From: a virus
DNA length: 38,920 nt
Direction: 5' to 3' (one strand)
IMG/VR virus record: IMGVR_UViG_3300044814_000116
Span: 1 to 38,920 of that record
Shown: positions 18,641-31,700 of the stretch, piece by piece
Layout of the letters: each line of letters opens with the position of its first letter
Numbering within the stretch: the first letter of the stretch is position 1
Notes under the pieces: generated by a model
Told to the model about the DNA's origin: nothing
Database searches by the model: none
What the model saw: the letters and a program-made list of their open reading frames with translations, nothing else
Translations under genes and position numbers: made by a program

Positions 18641-18925
18641 ATGAATGTCCCGGCAGCGGAACAATTATTAGGAAATCCCCACGAATCCATTCCCGCTGCT
18701 GCGTACAAGACACTTATCGACCGTTTGGAAATCGAAGGCAGCAAGGTCCGTCTCCCGGACTACGGCAGTTTCAAGGAATATCTCGCTCCCATTATCGAGT
18801 ACGAACTAGCAAGCGCGCTTCTAAAAGAGCACAACAACTCACAAGCCGACCTGGCCTGGCGCATGATGCGGCATCACGAGCTACAGCGCCGCAAGATGAA
18901 CGCGGAAGCGCAACTCAAACGATGA
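18641..18925 (+). CDS. Hypothetical protein
   Basis: A 94-residue protein, MNVPAAEQLLGNPHESIPAA..., with a strong site (CAGGAGGGG) upstream. Helical; C-terminus basic (RRKMNAEAQLKR). ATGA overlap with the holin-like gene. No family recognised. Confidence 0.65.
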   Translation: MNVPAAEQLLGNPHESIPAAAYKTLIDRLEIEGSKVRLPDYGSFKEYLAPIIEYELASALLKEHNNSQADLAWRMMRHHELQRRKMNAEAQLKR

Positions 18926-19191
18926 CCGCACTGGATCTGCCTCCGAACGTAATTTGGGCGATCCTGGTCGCTGTCTTCAGCGCCGGCGGACTCAACTTCC
19001 TCATCCGCCAGGCGCGCAAGGACGCTACCGGGGTCAGGCAAAGGCTCGACGCCAGCACGGATCGCATGAACGAACGCGTAGACCGCACGAATGCGCGGAT
19101 ACGCAGGCTGGAAGTCATTCAGTTACTCGCGGCCAAGACGGACGAGGAGCGTTTGAACGCGGCCAGGATTATCCTGGGGAACTGGGACTGA
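18922..19191 (+). CDS. Holin-like membrane protein
   Basis: An 89-residue product with one transmembrane segment (about residues 9-27, NVIWAILVAVFSAGGLNFLI) followed by a charged helical coiled-coil-like tail (RMNERVDRTNARIRRLEVIQ). One N-terminal helix plus a charged coil, directly upstream of and abutting the endolysin gene, is typical of small phage holin or lysis-accessory proteins. A single helix is compatible with a class III holin, but function is inferred from position. Confidence 0.55.
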   Translation: MTALDLPPNVIWAILVAVFSAGGLNFLIRQARKDATGVRQRLDASTDRMNERVDRTNARIRRLEVIQLLAAKTDEERLNAARIILGNWD

Positions 19192-24703: not shown

Positions 24704-25387
24704 TCACATGGATGCTGCCCAACTATGCCCGCGTACGATCTTGCAAATGGTGCTGTAACCCATCCCAAATTTATTCGCTAGGCTTTGTCGGGTTTCCCCG
24801 GAGCTACACAAGGAGCGGATTTGCTCTACTTGTTCCAGAGATAGTTTGATAGGCGAACGTGTTGGAGTCGGTACGACGAGGCCCCTCCAGTTGATACCTC
24901 GAAGGATTTTGTGGATGCAGGATTGTGCAACGCCGAGATCGTTTGCGATTTGTCGCTCTGATTCTCCTGCTAGATATCGCGGGGACACGGAAAGAACTTG
25001 TTTTTCCGTAAGCATGGGAACTAAACCTCTTCTAATGTTCTCCACCAAGGTAACAGGTTCAACGTGCTCTGGCATCACACATTTGCGGATTCGACATAAA
25101 TGGTCAAGCGGATGGTATCGTCCATGATGGATTTCTCCAACATAAGCGCGGTAAAAAAGACGATGTCCTCCGAGCGTCTTTCTGTTTCTCTTTACTTTTG
25201 GATACCCCCACTTGTTTAACCCCTGTTCCCACACCCAACATTTCGTCTTGTATCCCATGTCCAGTACAAGATAGGAGGGAATGCCTGCTTTTTTATGATG
25301 GTTATGAAGAAAGCCGGAGACTTCTTTATCGTCCCCCGTAAACATTGGTTGGAGGCATCCACATCCACAAAGAACTGGAGAGAGCAT
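24704..25387 (-). CDS. HNH homing endonuclease with two HTH segments
   Basis: A 227-residue protein. Start ATG 25387 by ATGA overlap with the GNAT-like gene. The catalytic zone has GGHRLFYRAYVGE, then HHGRYHPLDHLCRIRKCVMP and EHVEPVTLVEN, the standard HNH pattern (D-H, C-x-N-P-E-H type, here CVMPEH). Two helix-turn-helix units follow: ERQIANDLGVAQSCIHKILR and RQSLANKFGMGYSTICKIVR, both ending in -RG-x-W, typical of NUMOD-like DNA-binding repeats. Such genes are selfish elements that cut near their own insertion site. It stands alone between structural genes. Confidence 0.85.
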   Translation of the reverse strand: MLSPVLCGCGCLQPMFTGDDKEVSGFLHNHHKKAGIPSYLVLDMGYKTKCWVWEQGLNKWGYPKVKRNRKTLGGHRLFYRAYVGEIHHGRYHPLDHLCRIRKCVMPEHVEPVTLVENIRRGLVPMLTEKQVLSVSPRYLAGESERQIANDLGVAQSCIHKILRGINWRGLVVPTPTRSPIKLSLEQVEQIRSLCSSGETRQSLANKFGMGYSTICKIVRGHSWAASM

Positions 25388-25779
25388 CACTGCGCCTCCG
25401 GCACAGAAACGTAAACCGGATACGGAACCTTCACCATACCACGCTCTTGGCACATTCGGACGGCGATCGGGTGCTCACAGACGGCCATGTATCCACGAGC
25501 GTGAGCTTCCGTAAGAAATTCCTGCATGTCGTTCGCAAGTTGTTCAGCGACTCCCGTGCCACGCTCGTCGCGATCCACAAGCAAAGGCTCAACGTGCGGG
25601 ACGTGCTGTAAAATATAAACACCGACGATCTTTCCGCTGCGCTCCGCAACGCGTATACGAGAGAACTCCCGGCTGAGAGACATCCAGCCGCGACTGGCCA
25701 GCTTTAAATCAATCGCGTCCCATTCTGCCTGCGTGGCGGAATGACCGTCGATCCACCGAAATGTAACTTCGTCGCTCAT
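25387..25779 (-). CDS. GNAT-like acetyltransferase domain protein
   Basis: A 130-residue protein. SGKIVGVYILQHVPHVEPLL is followed by VDRDERGTGVAEQLANDMQE, the acetyl-CoA-binding R-x-x-G-x-G/A loop and helix of the GNAT fold. The upstream half (TQAEWDAIDLKLASRGWM) resembles the first helices of the fold. The substrate is unknown; it is placed between a structural gene and the HNH gene. ATGA overlaps on both sides. Its use in a virion operon is unusual; it may modify a phage or host protein. Confidence 0.6.
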   Translation of the reverse strand: MSDEVTFRWIDGHSATQAEWDAIDLKLASRGWMSLSREFSRIRVAERSGKIVGVYILQHVPHVEPLLVDRDERGTGVAEQLANDMQEFLTEAHARGYMAVCEHPIAVRMCQERGMVKVPYPVYVSVPEAQ

Positions 25780-26213
25780 TGGATTAAGAGCACGACAAAA
25801 ACTCCATCGTTGGCGTTATCTGCGTCTACCAGATATCTGTACGGCGAGAACACATTTCTATCTAGCGGCGCGGAGGCCAGCACGAAAGTCTGTCCCGGAG
25901 TCAAGGTCGCCACGATGTCCCCCATGTCGTCGCGGTTGGCGCTCCCGGTGCCATCTCCCTTGCGAATGATGTACACATTTCCGGCGTTCAGTTGCGTGCC
26001 GTGGGACGCTCCGGGCTTAAATGCCTGGAATAGAATCTGCTGTGCGCGAGGGGTATACTCATCGGACGTGGAAGAAGTCGCAGCTTCCGGAGCTTCCACG
26101 GAGGCGGAATCCACAAGGGACATGAGCCCGACCGGAGTGCCGGGAGTGACAACTTTAATAAATCCAAGAGGCCAGTCTGGTCCATGACGATCTAGCAAAA
26201 CGGAGTTAGCCAT
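25776..26213 (-). CDS. Small virion protein candidate
   Basis: A 145-residue protein beginning MANSVLLDRHGPDWPLGFIK with AAGGAG upstream. Mixed strands with Gly/Thr/Pro-rich loops (IIRKGDGTGSANRDDMGDI, VATLTPGQTFVLASAPLDRN). The NDGVFVVLLIQ end and the position suggest a capsid-decoration or tail accessory protein. No signal peptide. Confidence 0.5.
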   Translation of the reverse strand: MANSVLLDRHGPDWPLGFIKVVTPGTPVGLMSLVDSASVEAPEAATSSTSDEYTPRAQQILFQAFKPGASHGTQLNAGNVYIIRKGDGTGSANRDDMGDIVATLTPGQTFVLASAPLDRNVFSPYRYLVDADNANDGVFVVLLIQ

Positions 26214-26246: not shown

Positions 26247-26798
26247 CTATTGGAAAAACACTGTTAAATTTCCTGCTGTACCACATGCCGAAGCTCCGTT
26301 TACTGCTGAAGCAATACCGACCGCAATTCCAGTAGAGAAATTTACCGGGTAAGGAAACGTCACATTTGATACGCCGCTTGCCGGCAGCGGGATCGAAAGA
26401 ATTACTGCCGTCCCCAAAGTTCCGGCAGTCGCTGAGTTAACAAATTCTACCCAACAAACAGAGGCGGCGCCGTTAACGGCATATACACCATAGACATTTC
26501 CGGCGCTAGCCTTCACATTCACAGATATCGTTACAGTAGCCTTGCCACTCGCGGAGATAGCTGCACCCGTTGCAGTCGTCGGAGTCGCTACGTGCCAGAT
26601 TTGATTTGCCGGCGCGGCGCCGTTTGTGGCTGCGTCGAAGACTGCTCCAGCATTCCCAGTGATTCCAACTTTCTGCACGCCAGTGGCAGCTGTTGAAACA
26701 GCGCTCCCACCAATGTTCTGCACGTTGGTCGGCGAAGGCGCAGACACGTTTAGCTGGAAGGCGAGAACTAAGGCTACGAGGGTGGCGATTGGTCGCAT
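26247..26798 (-). CDS. Exported small beta protein
   Basis: A 183-residue product. Residues 1-20 (MRPIATLVALVLAFQLNVSA) are a clear Sec-type signal peptide with cleavage after Ala20. The mature part is Ala/Val/Thr/Gly-rich with alternating strands (GKATVTISVNVKASAGNVYG, TFPYPVNFSTGIAVGIASAV), an Ig-like or jelly-roll composition. Two Cys in the mature part could form a disulfide outside the cytoplasm. The C-terminal pattern of PVNFSTGIA and NLTVFF recalls the neighbouring protein at 26803. Role unknown. Confidence 0.6.
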   Translation of the reverse strand: MRPIATLVALVLAFQLNVSAPSPTNVQNIGGSAVSTAATGVQKVGITGNAGAVFDAATNGAAPANQIWHVATPTTATGAAISASGKATVTISVNVKASAGNVYGVYAVNGAASVCWVEFVNSATAGTLGTAVILSIPLPASGVSNVTFPYPVNFSTGIAVGIASAVNGASACGTAGNLTVFFQ

Positions 26799-26802
26799 CA
26801 GA

Positions 26803-27555
26803 TTATTGCAGGCCCGCGACGAACAAATTTAGTGCTGAGCCCGTTCCCGCAATGGCTGTTATCCCGGCGGTAAAAAGTACTCCATTCACAGGGAATTGAA
26901 CGTTGGAGTTCGCGGGGACGCTGTAGTCTGCGTTGCCGCCAATCCAAATGATCGGCGTTCCTGTTTTATCCGCCAGGCGGAAGGTTACCGCGGAGTTCGT
27001 TATATTGTTGACGTAGACAGCGGTCACGCAGGTAGTGGTACTGGTGACGGATGTTCCCGCGCCAGTGGCCACGCCGACTGTGGCGCTCGTGAAAGTCGTA
27101 GACTGCGTGCAAGCGGAAGGAACAGCTCTAACGAAGCCGATATTCGCGGTCCCGTTGACCAGCGCGGAAAGCGAGGTCACCGCTGTTGTGGATCCGGTGT
27201 CTGCGATGACGTGCCCGATGACTGCAGCGCTGGCGTCGTTGATGACGTGACCAATGACAGCGGAGCCTGCAACTAATCCGACTGTACCGGTAGAGCCGAT
27301 CGACACTAAGTTCGTCGTGCCCGGGGTGGTCTGGTCGATGCCCACTTTTCCAATTACGTTGCCTCCGGCAGGAAGCGACCCGGTGACCGTGACGCTACTG
27401 CCTCCGCCACCAGACTGCTGTTGCTGCGAGTTCGTCGGCTGCGAGAAGACAATTCCTGCGATCACGATCAAAACAGCCAGCACGATCCACCTGGGAGTTT
27501 CGCGCCTGGGGCGCTCTCCGTAAACGTATCCCCGGCCTGGCTGTGGATAGCTCAT
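26803..27555 (-). CDS. Membrane-anchored beta-rich protein
   Basis: A 250-residue product. Start ATG at 27555 (MSYPQPGRGYVYGERPRRET); the longer frame up to 27807 is a shadow. A single N-terminal transmembrane segment (WIVLAVLIVIAGIVFSQ, about residues 23-39) follows a basic stretch, so the bulk should face outside. The mature part has repeated GHVI/GTV-type short strands (GHVINDASAAVIGHVIADTG), then a Cys-containing beta domain resembling 26247. Likely tail or surface protein. Confidence 0.6.
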   Translation of the reverse strand: MSYPQPGRGYVYGERPRRETPRWIVLAVLIVIAGIVFSQPTNSQQQQSGGGGSSVTVTGSLPAGGNVIGKVGIDQTTPGTTNLVSIGSTGTVGLVAGSAVIGHVINDASAAVIGHVIADTGSTTAVTSLSALVNGTANIGFVRAVPSACTQSTTFTSATVGVATGAGTSVTSTTTCVTAVYVNNITNSAVTFRLADKTGTPIIWIGGNADYSVPANSNVQFPVNGVLFTAGITAIAGTGSALNLFVAGLQ

Positions 27556-27575
27556 AGTCTGTCTCTCTCTCTCTT

Positions 27576-27863
27576 CTAGGCTGAGAACTGCGCCCGCACA
27601 ATAGTGCTTCCCGTTACCGCTTGCAGGAAAGCGAAAGTCTGCCCGGCGGGATAGCGATGCCCGGTGCCAGCCAGCAGGAGTTCCTGCACCCCGGCCTTTA
27701 TGATATCTTCCGTGTTCGCGTCGGCGGAATCTGTTCGAATACGCACGTCGGCGTCCGGGCGCAGGGCCCAAGTGGTGCAGTTGATTGGCGTGATTACCGG
27801 CGTCCACGTGCTGTCGGTTACCGCTATGGCCCGGATGGCGAATATGATGCTGGCGTCGGCCAT
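27576..27863 (-). CDS. Small beta protein, structural candidate
   Basis: A 95-residue protein starting MADASIIFAIRAIAVTDSTW, with short strands (RIRTDSADANTEDIIKAGVQ, ELLLAGTGHRYPAGQTFAFL). No signal peptide. Probably a virion or tail accessory protein given its place between two tail-like genes. Confidence 0.5.
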   Translation of the reverse strand: MADASIIFAIRAIAVTDSTWTPVITPINCTTWALRPDADVRIRTDSADANTEDIIKAGVQELLLAGTGHRYPAGQTFAFLQAVTGSTIVRAQFSA

Positions 27864-27887
27864 GGCGTCACCAATAGCTGTTAAGCA

Positions 27888-29510
27888 TCAGAAGCGCCGC
27901 TCCTTGGGCCTTGGTACCCTAGCAAAAATCGCTGCCGCTGGCGCTGTCATTGTTGGCCCTCCAGTTGAGTAAGTATAAGCTCCAATGTCCCAAGCCACGC
28001 TCGCGGAACGGCTGACTCCGGCCCTGTCTAGATCAAGGGCTGGAATCCCCAAACTGGTAAGATTCACACCGTTAGTGATGGCGGAGCTTCCAGCAGTTGG
28101 TTTGTAACCGGCACTCAAGAGTGGATTTCCTGTTTGGGTGCCGGTGTCGAATCCTGTACCGGTTGTCCATGCTGCTACAGTTGCGTACCCCGTTACCCCA
28201 TTTTGCATTTGCGAAAACCCTGTACCACCGTGGAGATTGTAGAAAAGGTTAAAGTCACTTGCCGTCAGTGTTGTCCCTGCATTTATGGCGATTCCTGTGC
28301 CGATATTCTCCACTAGATTGTTCTTGATCGTGCAGGAGTGATCTGTCTTGAAACCCAGACTGAACCCGTTGGCGTTTTGTACGTTTGCTCCATCGATTGT
28401 GTTGTTATAAGCCGCACAAGTGCCCGTACCCAAGCCGGTAAAGTAAGCGTTTCCGGGTGCGTTTGAGCTGGTGTTCACCATGAGATTGTTGAAGATCTGC
28501 GTGCTGGTAATGGTGCCGCCATTGGGGTCGTAGAATACATAACTGGTGCTGTTCACTCCGCAATCACCGTGCATGTAGTTCCCGTTTAGTGTGACGTTGG
28601 TGATCGTCCCGCCGCTCCCCTGAAAAATGAAAATGAAGTTATGATGGAAGGTGTCTGAGGCCGTGTCCCAGTTCATCATGTCGTACATTTCGTTGTTTTG
28701 TACGCTCACGGTGTCAATGGCATTAGCGCCTGCAGCGGTGCCTACCGCAATGCACTGGTTGCAGCGGTAAAGCACATTCCCTATATAAGTTACCGTTGAG
28801 TCACTGGCCCCAGCGTTATGATAGAAACCGTAAGCGGTGTCATGAATGAGATTGTTGGTAAACGTGACGTTGGAGCTGTTTTGCGATATTACCGCCGCAG
28901 GCAAGTTCCCGGAAGTTACGCATCCGGTGTTGTCCGCCGACGAGGTGTGCTGACAGATATTCGCAACCGCCAAGTTCTGAACGATGATGTGATTTGAGCC
29001 ATTGATCCACACAGCCGTGCTGTAGGCATTGTTAGCGAGGCCCGAGCCGTTTGCAGTGTTCTGAATGATTCCGCCCTGGACGAATGTTCCTGCAATAGCA
29101 CTGCCTGTACCGCCTCCATCAAACGTAATATAGCTCAAATTTACGAATGCTACTGCAGCGTTAGAGCCTCCTCCCCAGTAGGGAGATGTGATGTTCGCAC
29201 CGGTATCCAGTTTTACGACAATAGGACTCCCGGCGCTACCACTGCCCTGAGCAAACAAAAGGTCCGCTTGTCCTGCTGTTCCTGTGAATGTCCCGCAAAC
29301 AAGTACCTGAGTACCTGGGCCGATCTTCCCTGAGCTTGAGCCCCAGTTTCCAGCGGTATTATATTGTGCGGCTGTCAAGTTTGGAGACGAACCTGTGCCT
29401 GTTGGGCAGTTGCCGGTAGCTGCGCCGGTGGGAGTTACATAGACGTTGGCCGCCTGACCGAATGCGGATGGGCCAATCAACAATAGGAAGATTACAGAGA
29501 AGCGACTCAT
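27888..29510 (-). CDS. Exported right-handed parallel beta-helix protein (pectate-lyase-like)
   Basis: A 540-residue product. Residues 1-20 form a signal peptide (MSRFSVIFLLLIGPSAFGQA). The body shows the stacked-strand rhythm of parallel beta-helices: repeated N-rich turns such as HDTAYGFYHNAGASDSTVTY, IHDTAY, GNVLYRCNQCIAVG, NNLVENIGTGIAIN. The C-terminus LDLDRAGVSRSASVAWDIGA has the D-x-x-G-x-x-R...DIGA signature of choice-of-anchor Q-type domains, known from surface-anchored bacterial beta-helix proteins. Such folds act as depolymerases or adhesins in phage tail spikes. The signal peptide on a phage spike is unusual. Confidence 0.75.
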   Translation of the reverse strand: MSRFSVIFLLLIGPSAFGQAANVYVTPTGAATGNCPTGTGSSPNLTAAQYNTAGNWGSSSGKIGPGTQVLVCGTFTGTAGQADLLFAQGSGSAGSPIVVKLDTGANITSPYWGGGSNAAVAFVNLSYITFDGGGTGSAIAGTFVQGGIIQNTANGSGLANNAYSTAVWINGSNHIIVQNLAVANICQHTSSADNTGCVTSGNLPAAVISQNSSNVTFTNNLIHDTAYGFYHNAGASDSTVTYIGNVLYRCNQCIAVGTAAGANAIDTVSVQNNEMYDMMNWDTASDTFHHNFIFIFQGSGGTITNVTLNGNYMHGDCGVNSTSYVFYDPNGGTITSTQIFNNLMVNTSSNAPGNAYFTGLGTGTCAAYNNTIDGANVQNANGFSLGFKTDHSCTIKNNLVENIGTGIAINAGTTLTASDFNLFYNLHGGTGFSQMQNGVTGYATVAAWTTGTGFDTGTQTGNPLLSAGYKPTAGSSAITNGVNLTSLGIPALDLDRAGVSRSASVAWDIGAYTYSTGGPTMTAPAAAIFARVPRPKERRF

Positions 29511-29526
29511 GCGACACCCGTCTTGT

Positions 29527-30267
29527 TCACTTCAAAGCCACAATCAAAGCGTTCCAATTTGTAGATACTCCAATTGTCCCTGTAGCCGTAAGCGCCGCCG
29601 CAGTTGACTGATAGTAGTAAGCTCCTGTGGTCGAGACATTGGGCGCGTAACTGTTGAGCATTTTAGCGGAGTCGTAAATCCATGCCACGTTCGTACCGAT
29701 GGTAAAGGCTGGAGCGCCGTTATAGCAAAACAGCCCGACAAGCATCTCTTTATTTGCGGCTGGAGTGATGCTGTTGCTGGTCAGAGAGGTGCTATTTCCT
29801 GAAGCGGTCGTGCCTGAGGTGTCTACACAGCTCGTTGTCGGCAGATTGGCAAACTCCATTACAATGACTTCCGAGTGGTCGATGCTGGAGCCTAAAGTGC
29901 TGCCGATAACTGTTTCACTCCCAACAGCGTTGCAGACCACCAATATCGCGCTGTAGTTCCCGCCAACCACAGCTTGATTGGCTACCACTGTGGTTGCCGT
30001 GCCAGCATCCCCGTTTACGGTCACGGTGTTCACTCCGTAAGTAGTGGTGAACAACAGCAGGGAATGCCCAGCAGTCACAGGACTGGTCATCGTACAAGTA
30101 ACGGACGTGGCGTTTGCCGCGTTTATATTCGCGCAGGCCTTCACAAAACTGGCTACTGACACTCCGCCTATCCCTACTGGTCCAGTCGTTGTAGCTGGAC
30201 CAACAACTCTGGCCTGCGGAGGCAAGAGGGAAAGCAGCGCAAGTGACGCTGCTAGTCTCGTTATCAT
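29527..30267 (-). CDS. Exported beta-rich protein
   Basis: A 246-residue product with start ATG 30267 (ATGA overlap with the next upstream gene's stop). Residues 1-19 (MITRLAASLALLSLLPPQA) form a signal peptide. Mature part: Ser/Thr/Ala-rich beta strands (SVTCTMTSPVTAGHSLLLFT, TVNGDAGTATTVVANQAVVG) with Cys pairs. Overall form resembles a small adhesin-like or virion decoration protein. No enzymatic motif. Confidence 0.6.
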   Translation of the reverse strand: MITRLAASLALLSLLPPQARVVGPATTTGPVGIGGVSVASFVKACANINAANATSVTCTMTSPVTAGHSLLLFTTTYGVNTVTVNGDAGTATTVVANQAVVGGNYSAILVVCNAVGSETVIGSTLGSSIDHSEVIVMEFANLPTTSCVDTSGTTASGNSTSLTSNSITPAANKEMLVGLFCYNGAPAFTIGTNVAWIYDSAKMLNSYAPNVSTTGAYYYQSTAAALTATGTIGVSTNWNALIVALK

Positions 30268-31700
30268 GTCTGACCTTTTCGTGTTACTGTAATGTCCAAG
30301 TTGTAGTTGCCGGTGCCCACGCTGCAAGCAGTATAGCCAGTCGCGTACTGAATGATTGAACCGTTGGTGTAAATGTTGAAGCTCCCGCTGGCCCAAGCGG
30401 TCGCGTTGGCAGCGGCGAAATGAAATGTTCCTGTTGTGGCTACGAGACTGGCGCTGTCGTCCATGGAGAGAGAAATAGCCGAATGTGCCAAGGCATTGGC
30501 GTCGGTCCAAGTTAGGAGAAAAGTCACTCCTCCGGTCCCTGGGGTTCCGCAGGCGGTCCCTCCCTGGGTGAAGGCCCAATCTACGGTATAAAGACCAGCG
30601 GTATTACATGCTCCAGCAGCAGAGGCACAGAGCGTCGCTGTTGAGATAGCAGCAGTGTTCCCCGTTGAATGAATCCGGCCAGGTTGTGTGCGCACCATCA
30701 AGCCTTGATTTGAGGCTCCCGTAGCCCCGTTTGTGTAAGCCACAAATTCATGCTGAGTGGAATTCGAGTCAATACCAGCCGCTCCGGCTACGTTGGTGAG
30801 ATCGGTGCCCTCAGTCATGCAAATTGATCCTGCAGTTCCCGGCGTACAGGCTGGAGGAGAAGTCCCGGTTTGAATGCTTACGACCTTTAAGCCGGAGGTG
30901 TTCGTGCAGGTCAAGGTGTTTGCGGTTGTCGCGCCTTCGTCGCAAAGGCTATTCGTCGGCGCGCTACCAGCCCCGCCGCCTTTGACCAGAAAGCCAGTGT
31001 TCAGAATGGCTGATGAGGAGGACTGCGTGGTGGAGTTAAAGTACGGGATACCACCTGAGGTTACCGTGCCTGAGACGGTAACAGGATAGACGGGTGCACC
31101 TCCAGTGCGCTGGATGGCGAAGTAGTTGGTGTTGTCGCTATATATCCACGCGCATTGGCCGGTTGTAAGGGAGATGCTTGACGCTGCGCTAGTGTAGGCT
31201 GAGCCGGTTGTGTAGCTAATTGTTGAAGTGGTGGGAGTGATTGTCGCTGTGCCTGCGCCGATGTCACAAGCGACGGTGACGAAATTAGACGCGAAGCCTG
31301 CGGATCCCGCTTGCGGGAGTGTGACGGCAATGGAACCAGCGTTACTGAAGCTTACATACCCAACCCGATCGGTAGTGGCAATTGTATAGGTTGTTCCGGT
31401 TTGTGCGTTTGTCGCTACGCCAGCGAGCGTCGGATCCGCTCCGCCAACGATGGCCCAGGCTGAGCCGCTGTACTGGCAGAGCACGCGCGTCGAGCCGCCA
31501 CCAGACGTGCAGCTCACTCCATTTCCGTCAGTCACGACCGCTAGAGTGTTCGTCGCCGGAGCGGACGGGAGATTCGCTACAGTGTAGGAGCTGACCCCGC
31601 CGCCCACGCCTCCGCCGATAGTGGTTTGAGCCAGCGCGGGAGTAGCGAGTAGTGGCATGAAAATAAAATACAGCGAGAGTCTTATTGTGAAGATTCTCAT
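30264..31700 (-). CDS. Exported large beta-rich protein
   Basis: A 478-residue product. Start ATG 31700 (GTG 31718 is the alternative) gives the signal peptide MRIFTIRLSLYFIFMPLLAT...ALA, cleaved before QTTIGG. The mature part is Gly/Ser/Thr-rich with many short strands and repeats of TSGGIPYFNSTTQSSSSAIL, a motif I associate with phage tail-fibre and metagenomic virion proteins from soil; the middle carries Cys pairs (TPGTAGSICMTEGTD). C-terminus YNLDITVTRKGQT. Probably a tail fibre or receptor-binding-associated protein. Confidence 0.6.
   Translation of the reverse strand: MRIFTIRLSLYFIFMPLLATPALAQTTIGGGVGGGVSSYTVANLPSAPATNTLAVVTDGNGVSCTSGGGSTRVLCQYSGSAWAIVGGADPTLAGVATNAQTGTTYTIATTDRVGYVSFSNAGSIAVTLPQAGSAGFASNFVTVACDIGAGTATITPTTSTISYTTGSAYTSAASSISLTTGQCAWIYSDNTNYFAIQRTGGAPVYPVTVSGTVTSGGIPYFNSTTQSSSSAILNTGFLVKGGGAGSAPTNSLCDEGATTANTLTCTNTSGLKVVSIQTGTSPPACTPGTAGSICMTEGTDLTNVAGAAGIDSNSTQHEFVAYTNGATGASNQGLMVRTQPGRIHSTGNTAAISTATLCASAAGACNTAGLYTVDWAFTQGGTACGTPGTGGVTFLLTWTDANALAHSAISLSMDDSASLVATTGTFHFAAANATAWASGSFNIYTNGSIIQYATGYTACSVGTGNYNLDITVTRKGQT

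Follow-up and report, generated by a model that had tools for sequence, protein, structure and literature searches.

The window analysed here, the whole 38,920-nucleotide (nt) stretch (38.9 kb) of virus record IMGVR_UViG_3300044814_000116 (IMG/VR), is part of a podovirus-type genome with its virion block on the minus strand. A run of six genes in this block (nt 26,247–31,700, all on the minus strand, with open reading frames (ORFs) at the positions given by an earlier, sequence-only reading) is best read as the variable 'spike slot' of a podovirus that probably infects an acidobacterium. Each gene is named below by its lower coordinate. Judged by their sequences, the proteins of the run are very likely exported homologues of tail spikes and fibres, and their docking on virions is given a little under an even chance. 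The six genes sit between homologues of gp32 and gp33 of the Tunturiibacter phages, i.e. within the virion block, and constitute a variable slot relative to those phages because gp32 and gp33 are there only about 150 bp apart. Tunturi_1 and Tunturi_2, podoviruses of an acidobacterium (PMC11924767), were the only cultured relatives found, and the probable host of the window virus is assigned from the Tunturi relatives and the style of the signal peptides alone.

Export signals were called with a home-made rule based on a basic n-region, a 10-residue uncharged hydrophobic core and small residues at positions −3/−1. Sec-type signals had been claimed for four of the six genes, and three of these are clear: 30264 (MRIFTIRLSLYFIFMPLLATPALA/QTT, the slash marking the cleavage site), 27888 (MSRFSVIFLLLIGPSAFG/QAA) and 26247 (MRPIATLVALVLAFQLNVSA/PSP). 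In the fourth, 29527 (MITRLAASLALLSLLPPQA..), n- and h-regions are present and the cleavage site is poor, so that the predicted signal peptide is only probable. The N-terminal membrane anchor proposed for 26803 was borne out by a hydrophobic helix that follows about 22 residues (..WIVLAVLIVIAGIVFS/Q), and this N-terminus may be either a signal anchor or cleaved at VFS/Q. No export signal was called in 27576 or in the remaining window genes tested, where one low-hydrophobicity call was rejected and another was a short membrane protein. A lipobox was not flagged in any of the five window proteins with N-terminal signals (183–540 amino acids, aa). The rule is conservative on controls: it called 2 of 222 conserved virion genes of relatives, none of the 20 virion proteins of Cellulophaga phage phi14:2 proven by mass spectrometry (MS), only the Rz spanin in T7, only a membrane anchor in phi17:2, and none of the named tail fibres of Tunturi_3. 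The last four controls agree with the earlier premise that phage tail proteins normally lack signal peptides. The phi14:2 and phi17:2 results led to rejection of the possibility that Bacteroidota phages, too, have signals on their virion proteins; a 942-aa protein of phi17:2 has a fold resembling that of 27888 and no signal peptide.

A profile search with the large tail protein gp31 returned 46 related viral loci or contigs (prefixed L below), in which genes were called with a simple hexamer model and many of which are incomplete at their ends. Neither the gp31 profile, run against 84,980 bacterial and archaeal genomes, nor a scan of genome contigs with the fibre domain described below detected a provirus or host copy. 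Looking for the gene set in other phages, as had been suggested, showed the pattern to be group-wide: the 25 closest phages, including Tunturi_1, carry 72 called exported proteins of at least 140 aa, mostly with textbook signal peptides, and the rule called export for 97 of the 509 genes of this minimum length in 45 loci. In Tunturi_1 (PP887698), signal peptides are found on gp12 (1190 aa), gp13, gp14 ('tail spike'), gp16 and gp17 ('virion structural protein'), and the unrelated siphovirus Tunturi_4 (PP885687) has them on gp113 and gp114. These are likewise exported spike- or fibre-like proteins, in cultured acidobacterial phages, although the annotations of both genomes are silent on export and the exported genes of Tunturi_1 lie before gp30, outside the gp32–gp33 slot. 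Among the relatives, exported genes occur before gp30, in the gp32–gp33 slot or after gp33, and a single fixed insertion site was rejected on account of these three positions. A cassette in the order fibre (30264-like), protein of about 250–350 aa and beta-helix protein (27888-like), with overlapping stop and start codons, recurs in L021, L024, L032 and L041, and L058 has its last two genes. Since L021, L024 and L032 were retrieved through the fibre domain only, the cassette may also sit in other phage backgrounds. Within the clade of the window (gp31 identity of at least 50%), large non-exported spike-like proteins occur in L040 and L041 only, after allowing for missed signals.

The cleavage sites and cysteines of these proteins are further signs of export. 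An allowed site followed by Gln was found in 42 of the 72 phage signal peptides (shuffles: mean 18.6, maximum 29), and in the window Gln directly after the site is clear for 30264 and 27888. The same arrangement is present in 46% of 28 signal peptides in the first 250 kb of the Granulicella tundricola megaplasmid pACIX901. Inspection of pACIX901 by eye (L074, L076–L079) gave Gln after the cleavage site in 13 of about 20 convincing signal peptides. This preference was described as Bacteroidetes-specific (PMC5837995) and may exist in Terriglobia as well; by this shared +1 preference the phage signals resemble those of Terriglobia.

Exported proteins contain 2.0 Cys per 100 residues compared with 0.77 in the remaining proteins of 150 aa or more (p = 6e-13), and the median is 2.0 in exported versus 0.55 in non-exported proteins of similar composition, a conservative contrast because a few of the comparison proteins are exported ones missed by the rule. 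Copies of the 30264-type fibre domain have 2.06 Cys per 100 aa when exported and 0.35 when not. In two domain families a cysteine pair is confined to the exported copies. The count for the first is biased by the search pattern (TGQCAWI) used for L018–L032, a bias from which the second domain and the whole-protein densities are free. The second, an independent N-terminal fibre domain, reads GWC..SFPxC in exported proteins and GWV or GWS..SFPxA, or lacks the first cysteine, in non-exported ones; counted from the sequences, 16 of the 17 exported copies have both cysteines and none of the 7 non-exported ones does, although the copies are related sequences and not independent events. An exported and a non-exported copy of this domain occur together in one phage (L048). 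L045 and L046 have non-exported versions and no convincing exported protein within the sequenced stretch. It is plausible from these patterns that the cysteine enrichment reflects disulphide formation in the periplasm.

The likely start of 30264 is ATG 31,700, while the listed ORF begins at GTG 31,718, and its relatives (in L002, L003, L004, L005 and others) are all exported. Its 108-aa spike-assembly domain was found in 19 distinct exported and 12 non-exported fibres, the copies of distant relatives lying directly after gp31. Comparison of structural models, also suggested earlier, revealed a spike-assembly fold in 30264 and a right-handed beta-helix in 27888. The model of the 30264 domain matched virion spikes, namely the Pa223 capsid spike (Z-score 12.5, root-mean-square deviation (rmsd) 2.1 over 96 residues), the Solidus tailspike (11.8), the KP1 baseplate protein (11.6) and CBA120 TSP4 (10.5). 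The full-length AlphaFold2 (AF2) model was poor (predicted template modelling score (pTM) 0.34), and only aa 93–201 are trusted. The predicted tip gave Z-scores of about 7 to TNF/C1q-like folds and to the Bdellovibrio Bd2133 fibre tip, a weak level that is common by chance. On these models, 30264 is probably a fibre with a spike-assembly domain and a predicted binding tip. The listed ORF of 29527 begins upstream at TTG 30,579 and ATG 30,267 is the likely start; its homologues L035_15928 (34%) and L002_9056 (27%) have strong signal peptides. A homologue of 27888, L008_15846, is exported and 43% identical over aa 1–526. The 27888 model (AlphaFold, pTM 0.78) has the polysaccharide lyase RbmB as its best fold match (Z-score 30.3, rmsd 2.8 over 313 residues, 12% identity over the aligned part), and also matched AlgE epimerases, the PfbA adhesin and the Dettilon and Sf6 tailspikes (tailspikes 28–29). 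By its predicted fold, 27888 would be a beta-helix protein of the depolymerase type, like tailspikes and polysaccharide lyases. For 26803, ATG 27,555 is the likely start, the listed ORF beginning at an upstream GTG; 27888, 27576 and 26247 probably start at nt 29,510, 27,863 and 26,798, respectively. Pfam and PHROGs searches with the cluster proteins returned a weak Beta_helix match, one PHROG of unknown function and otherwise nothing convincing, and tblastn of INPHARED with the fibre domain and with 27888 gave no match.

In fold and in their place in the virion block, the 30264 domain and 27888 resemble tailed-phage fibres and tailspikes (CBA120 TSP4, Sf6, Dettilon, the Pa223 capsid spike). 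They differ from these in having signal peptides, cysteine pairs and several exported proteins per phage, and their virion location is putative. Searches of the open-access literature turned up no account of fibres or spikes being exported in tailed phages; exported phage endolysins have been described (PMC6116005), and the target proteins of phage diversity-generating retroelements are stated to lack signal peptides (PMC6199706). Mosaic adhesive trimer (MAT) fibres of Bdellovibrio are phage-like trimeric fibres exported and displayed by a cell, with a conserved beta-rich domain of about 130 aa right behind the signal peptide (PMC10769870). Like 30264, they are phage-fibre-like proteins with a signal peptide, and the weak tip match to Bd2133 is at a level common by chance; they are encoded by a predatory bacterium and were shown on its surface, while the window proteins are phage-encoded. 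With its signal peptide and right-handed beta-helix, 27888 resembles secreted polysaccharide lyases, among them RbmB of Vibrio cholerae, but it is a phage gene adjoining a fibre gene and the likeness is one of fold. Porphyromonas gingivalis phages also encode proteins with signal peptides followed by Gln (Q-rule); those are of unknown function, belong to other phages and are not described as fibres or spikes (PMC10367356). In the present group, Gln after the signal peptidase I site is a tendency, and the host phylum differs from the one for which the Bacteroidetes Q-rule was described. Unlike Llp-type lipoproteins that exclude superinfection, the window proteins have no flagged lipobox cysteine and are 183–540 aa long.

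The overall explanation judged best, an exported and oxidatively folded set of spike, fibre and depolymerase proteins, is held tentatively, at a little under an even chance. The proteins would be translocated by the host Sec system during infection, have their signals cut by host signal peptidase I, fold with disulphides in the periplasm and be freed by cell lysis. Less certain steps are that the set would serve as the receptor-binding and polysaccharide-degrading equipment of the phage, and that it would dock on virions during or after lysis, perhaps via the short unexported gp32 and gp33 proteins. It may be, though this is put a shade lower, that a lineage of Acidobacteriota tailed phages has moved its receptor-binding proteins from cytoplasmic assembly to Sec export, with oxidation and folding in the periplasm and joining to finished virions at or after lysis. 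All four large spike-like proteins of the complete Tunturi_1 genome (gp12, gp13, gp14 and gp17) and the small gp16 carry export signals. Among its unexported proteins of 200 aa or more, a spike-like composition (rich in Ser, Thr, Gly and Asn, poor in charge) is seen in the annotated scaffold gp9 alone, and gp33, the single unexported protein annotated as 'tail fiber', is 124 aa long. Since Tunturi_1 has no other obvious receptor-binding protein, the exported proteins are favoured as adhesins. Several fates had been proposed earlier, namely coating of the infected cell, a block to superinfection, action on the biofilm and binding to virions after lysis; adhesin and depolymerase roles are favoured by the homology to tail fibres and spikes and by a beta-helix of the carbohydrate-enzyme type. 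Most simply, exported and non-exported forms would share one job, virion receptor binding and polysaccharide digestion, with the exported forms docking when the cell lyses or later. T4 fibres and P22 spikes can attach to particles in vitro, so docking outside the intact cell is feasible.

Several observations weigh against this reading. No N-terminal docking domain common to all exported proteins was found, and gp32, tried as the detached anchor of the exported fibre, shows a weak link to it (hhalign probability 46%). Distant relatives also retain a non-exported fibre. In other exported members, domains familiar from secreted proteins were found (ASH/HYDIN, TIG, CHB_HEX_C and beta-helix); domains so typical of secreted host proteins suit non-virion roles too. 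The proteins could accordingly be free depolymerases or adhesins, soluble or on debris and matrix, that break down or cover extracellular polysaccharide and thereby let progeny spread, and that are not virion parts. This has some weight, being what the ASH, TIG and CHB_HEX_C domains and the closeness of the 27888 fold to secreted polysaccharide enzymes such as RbmB (Z-score 30) would lead one to expect, but it is considered unlikely: 30264 contains a spike-assembly domain of the kind that virion spikes have, and on this view Tunturi_1 would lack any obvious receptor-binding protein.

The sharing of fibre domains by exported and non-exported copies, in L048 within one phage, would also suit receptor blocking, in which exported copies occupy receptors on the infected cell or on debris and prevent superinfection and the loss of progeny on dead cells. 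Known superinfection blockers are small membrane proteins or lipoproteins, whereas a lipobox was not flagged in the window proteins and each phage has many different large exported proteins, beyond what a blocker needs; this role is regarded as quite improbable. Least probable, and hardly expected, is that the signal-like N-termini do not serve export and instead act as hydrophobic tags, either holding the proteins in the virion or being removed while particles assemble in the cytoplasm. The lack of ideal cleavage sites in 26803 and 29527 would fit such tags, as would the case of Porphyromonas phages, whose capsid proteins have predicted signal peptides that the prohead protease is believed to remove (PMC10367356), but tags give no reason for a host-style cleavage motif followed by Gln or for cysteine pairs confined to signal-bearing copies.

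Features of the spike slot and the surrounding virion block (window coordinates; aa, amino acids; HMM, hidden Markov model; pLDDT, predicted local distance difference test)
Feature	Position	Strand	Remarks
Fibre-like gene, truncated by contig end	38115..38918	-	Matching segments within exported L008 protein
gp30-like gene	36978-35635	-	Virion block
gp31-like large tail protein, 1210 aa	32006..35638	-	Anchor gene for finding relatives
gp32-like short protein, 101 aa	31720..32025	-	Probable helical part; no export signal; candidate cytoplasmic anchor
30264, predicted exported fibre-like protein, 478 aa from ATG 31700	30264..31700	-	Signal peptide 31700-31629, 24 aa, ALA/Q
Predicted spike-assembly domain with cysteine pair, aa 94-201 of 30264	31098..31421	-	HMM; AF2 pLDDT mostly >90
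Predicted C-terminal beta-sandwich tip, aa 330-478 of 30264	30267..30713	-	AF2
29527, probable exported beta protein, 246 aa	29527..30267	-	Start overlaps stop of preceding gene
27888, predicted exported right-handed beta-helix protein, 540 aa	27888..29510	-	Signal peptide 29510-29457, AFG/Q
27576, small cluster protein, 95 aa	27576..27863	-	No export signal
26803, protein of 250 aa	26803..27555	-	Hydrophobic helix after basic 22-residue stretch (home-made rule)
26247, predicted exported protein, 183 aa	26247..26798	-	Signal peptide 26798-26739
gp33-like protein	25776..26213	-	Right border of variable slot; no export signal
GNAT acetyltransferase	25779-25387	-	Virion block
Gene, then large internal proteins	24722-24108	-	Virion block, beyond GNAT gene

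Many relatives have retained the GNAT acetyltransferase in their virion block, and Tunturi gp34 is at the same position. Between it and 24108, nt 24,704–25,453 gave weak HNH and resolvase-type helix-turn-helix matches and no homologue was found in the relative L006; this gene is likely to be an insertion of the homing-endonuclease type. At the junction of two gene blocks (nt 18,922–19,191), a short protein with a single strongly hydrophobic N-terminal helix is possibly a holin. In three relatives, a non-exported protein of about 135 aa (..PTVGGSANxWGTxLN..; L008 18,587–18,991, L033 18,698–19,108, L043 18,673–19,077) is interleaved with exported spike genes and is possibly a small fibre or chaperone. 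Two further proteins, in L011 (Tunturi_1 gp43) and L080 (gp78), begin with lipoprotein-type signals (SLSGC and LLTGC, respectively), which makes the annotation of gp78 as 'tail protein' doubtful.

The usual view is that tailed phages make their fibres and spikes, and attach them, in the cytoplasm. Predicted cleavable export signals and gained disulphide-type cysteine pairs on most such proteins of one group, made up of this soil phage and relatives that appear to infect Acidobacteria, are unexpected and could amount to a novel means of arming phages or altering the infected cell. Such a group would either complete its adhesins outside the cytoplasm or deploy fibre-derived proteins on or around the infected cell at large scale; for phages of a phylum among the most abundant in soil, either outcome would be new. 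If docking is true, the assembly route would itself be new. When soil viromes are annotated, a signal peptide on a fibre gene should not be taken for misassembly or for a host gene.

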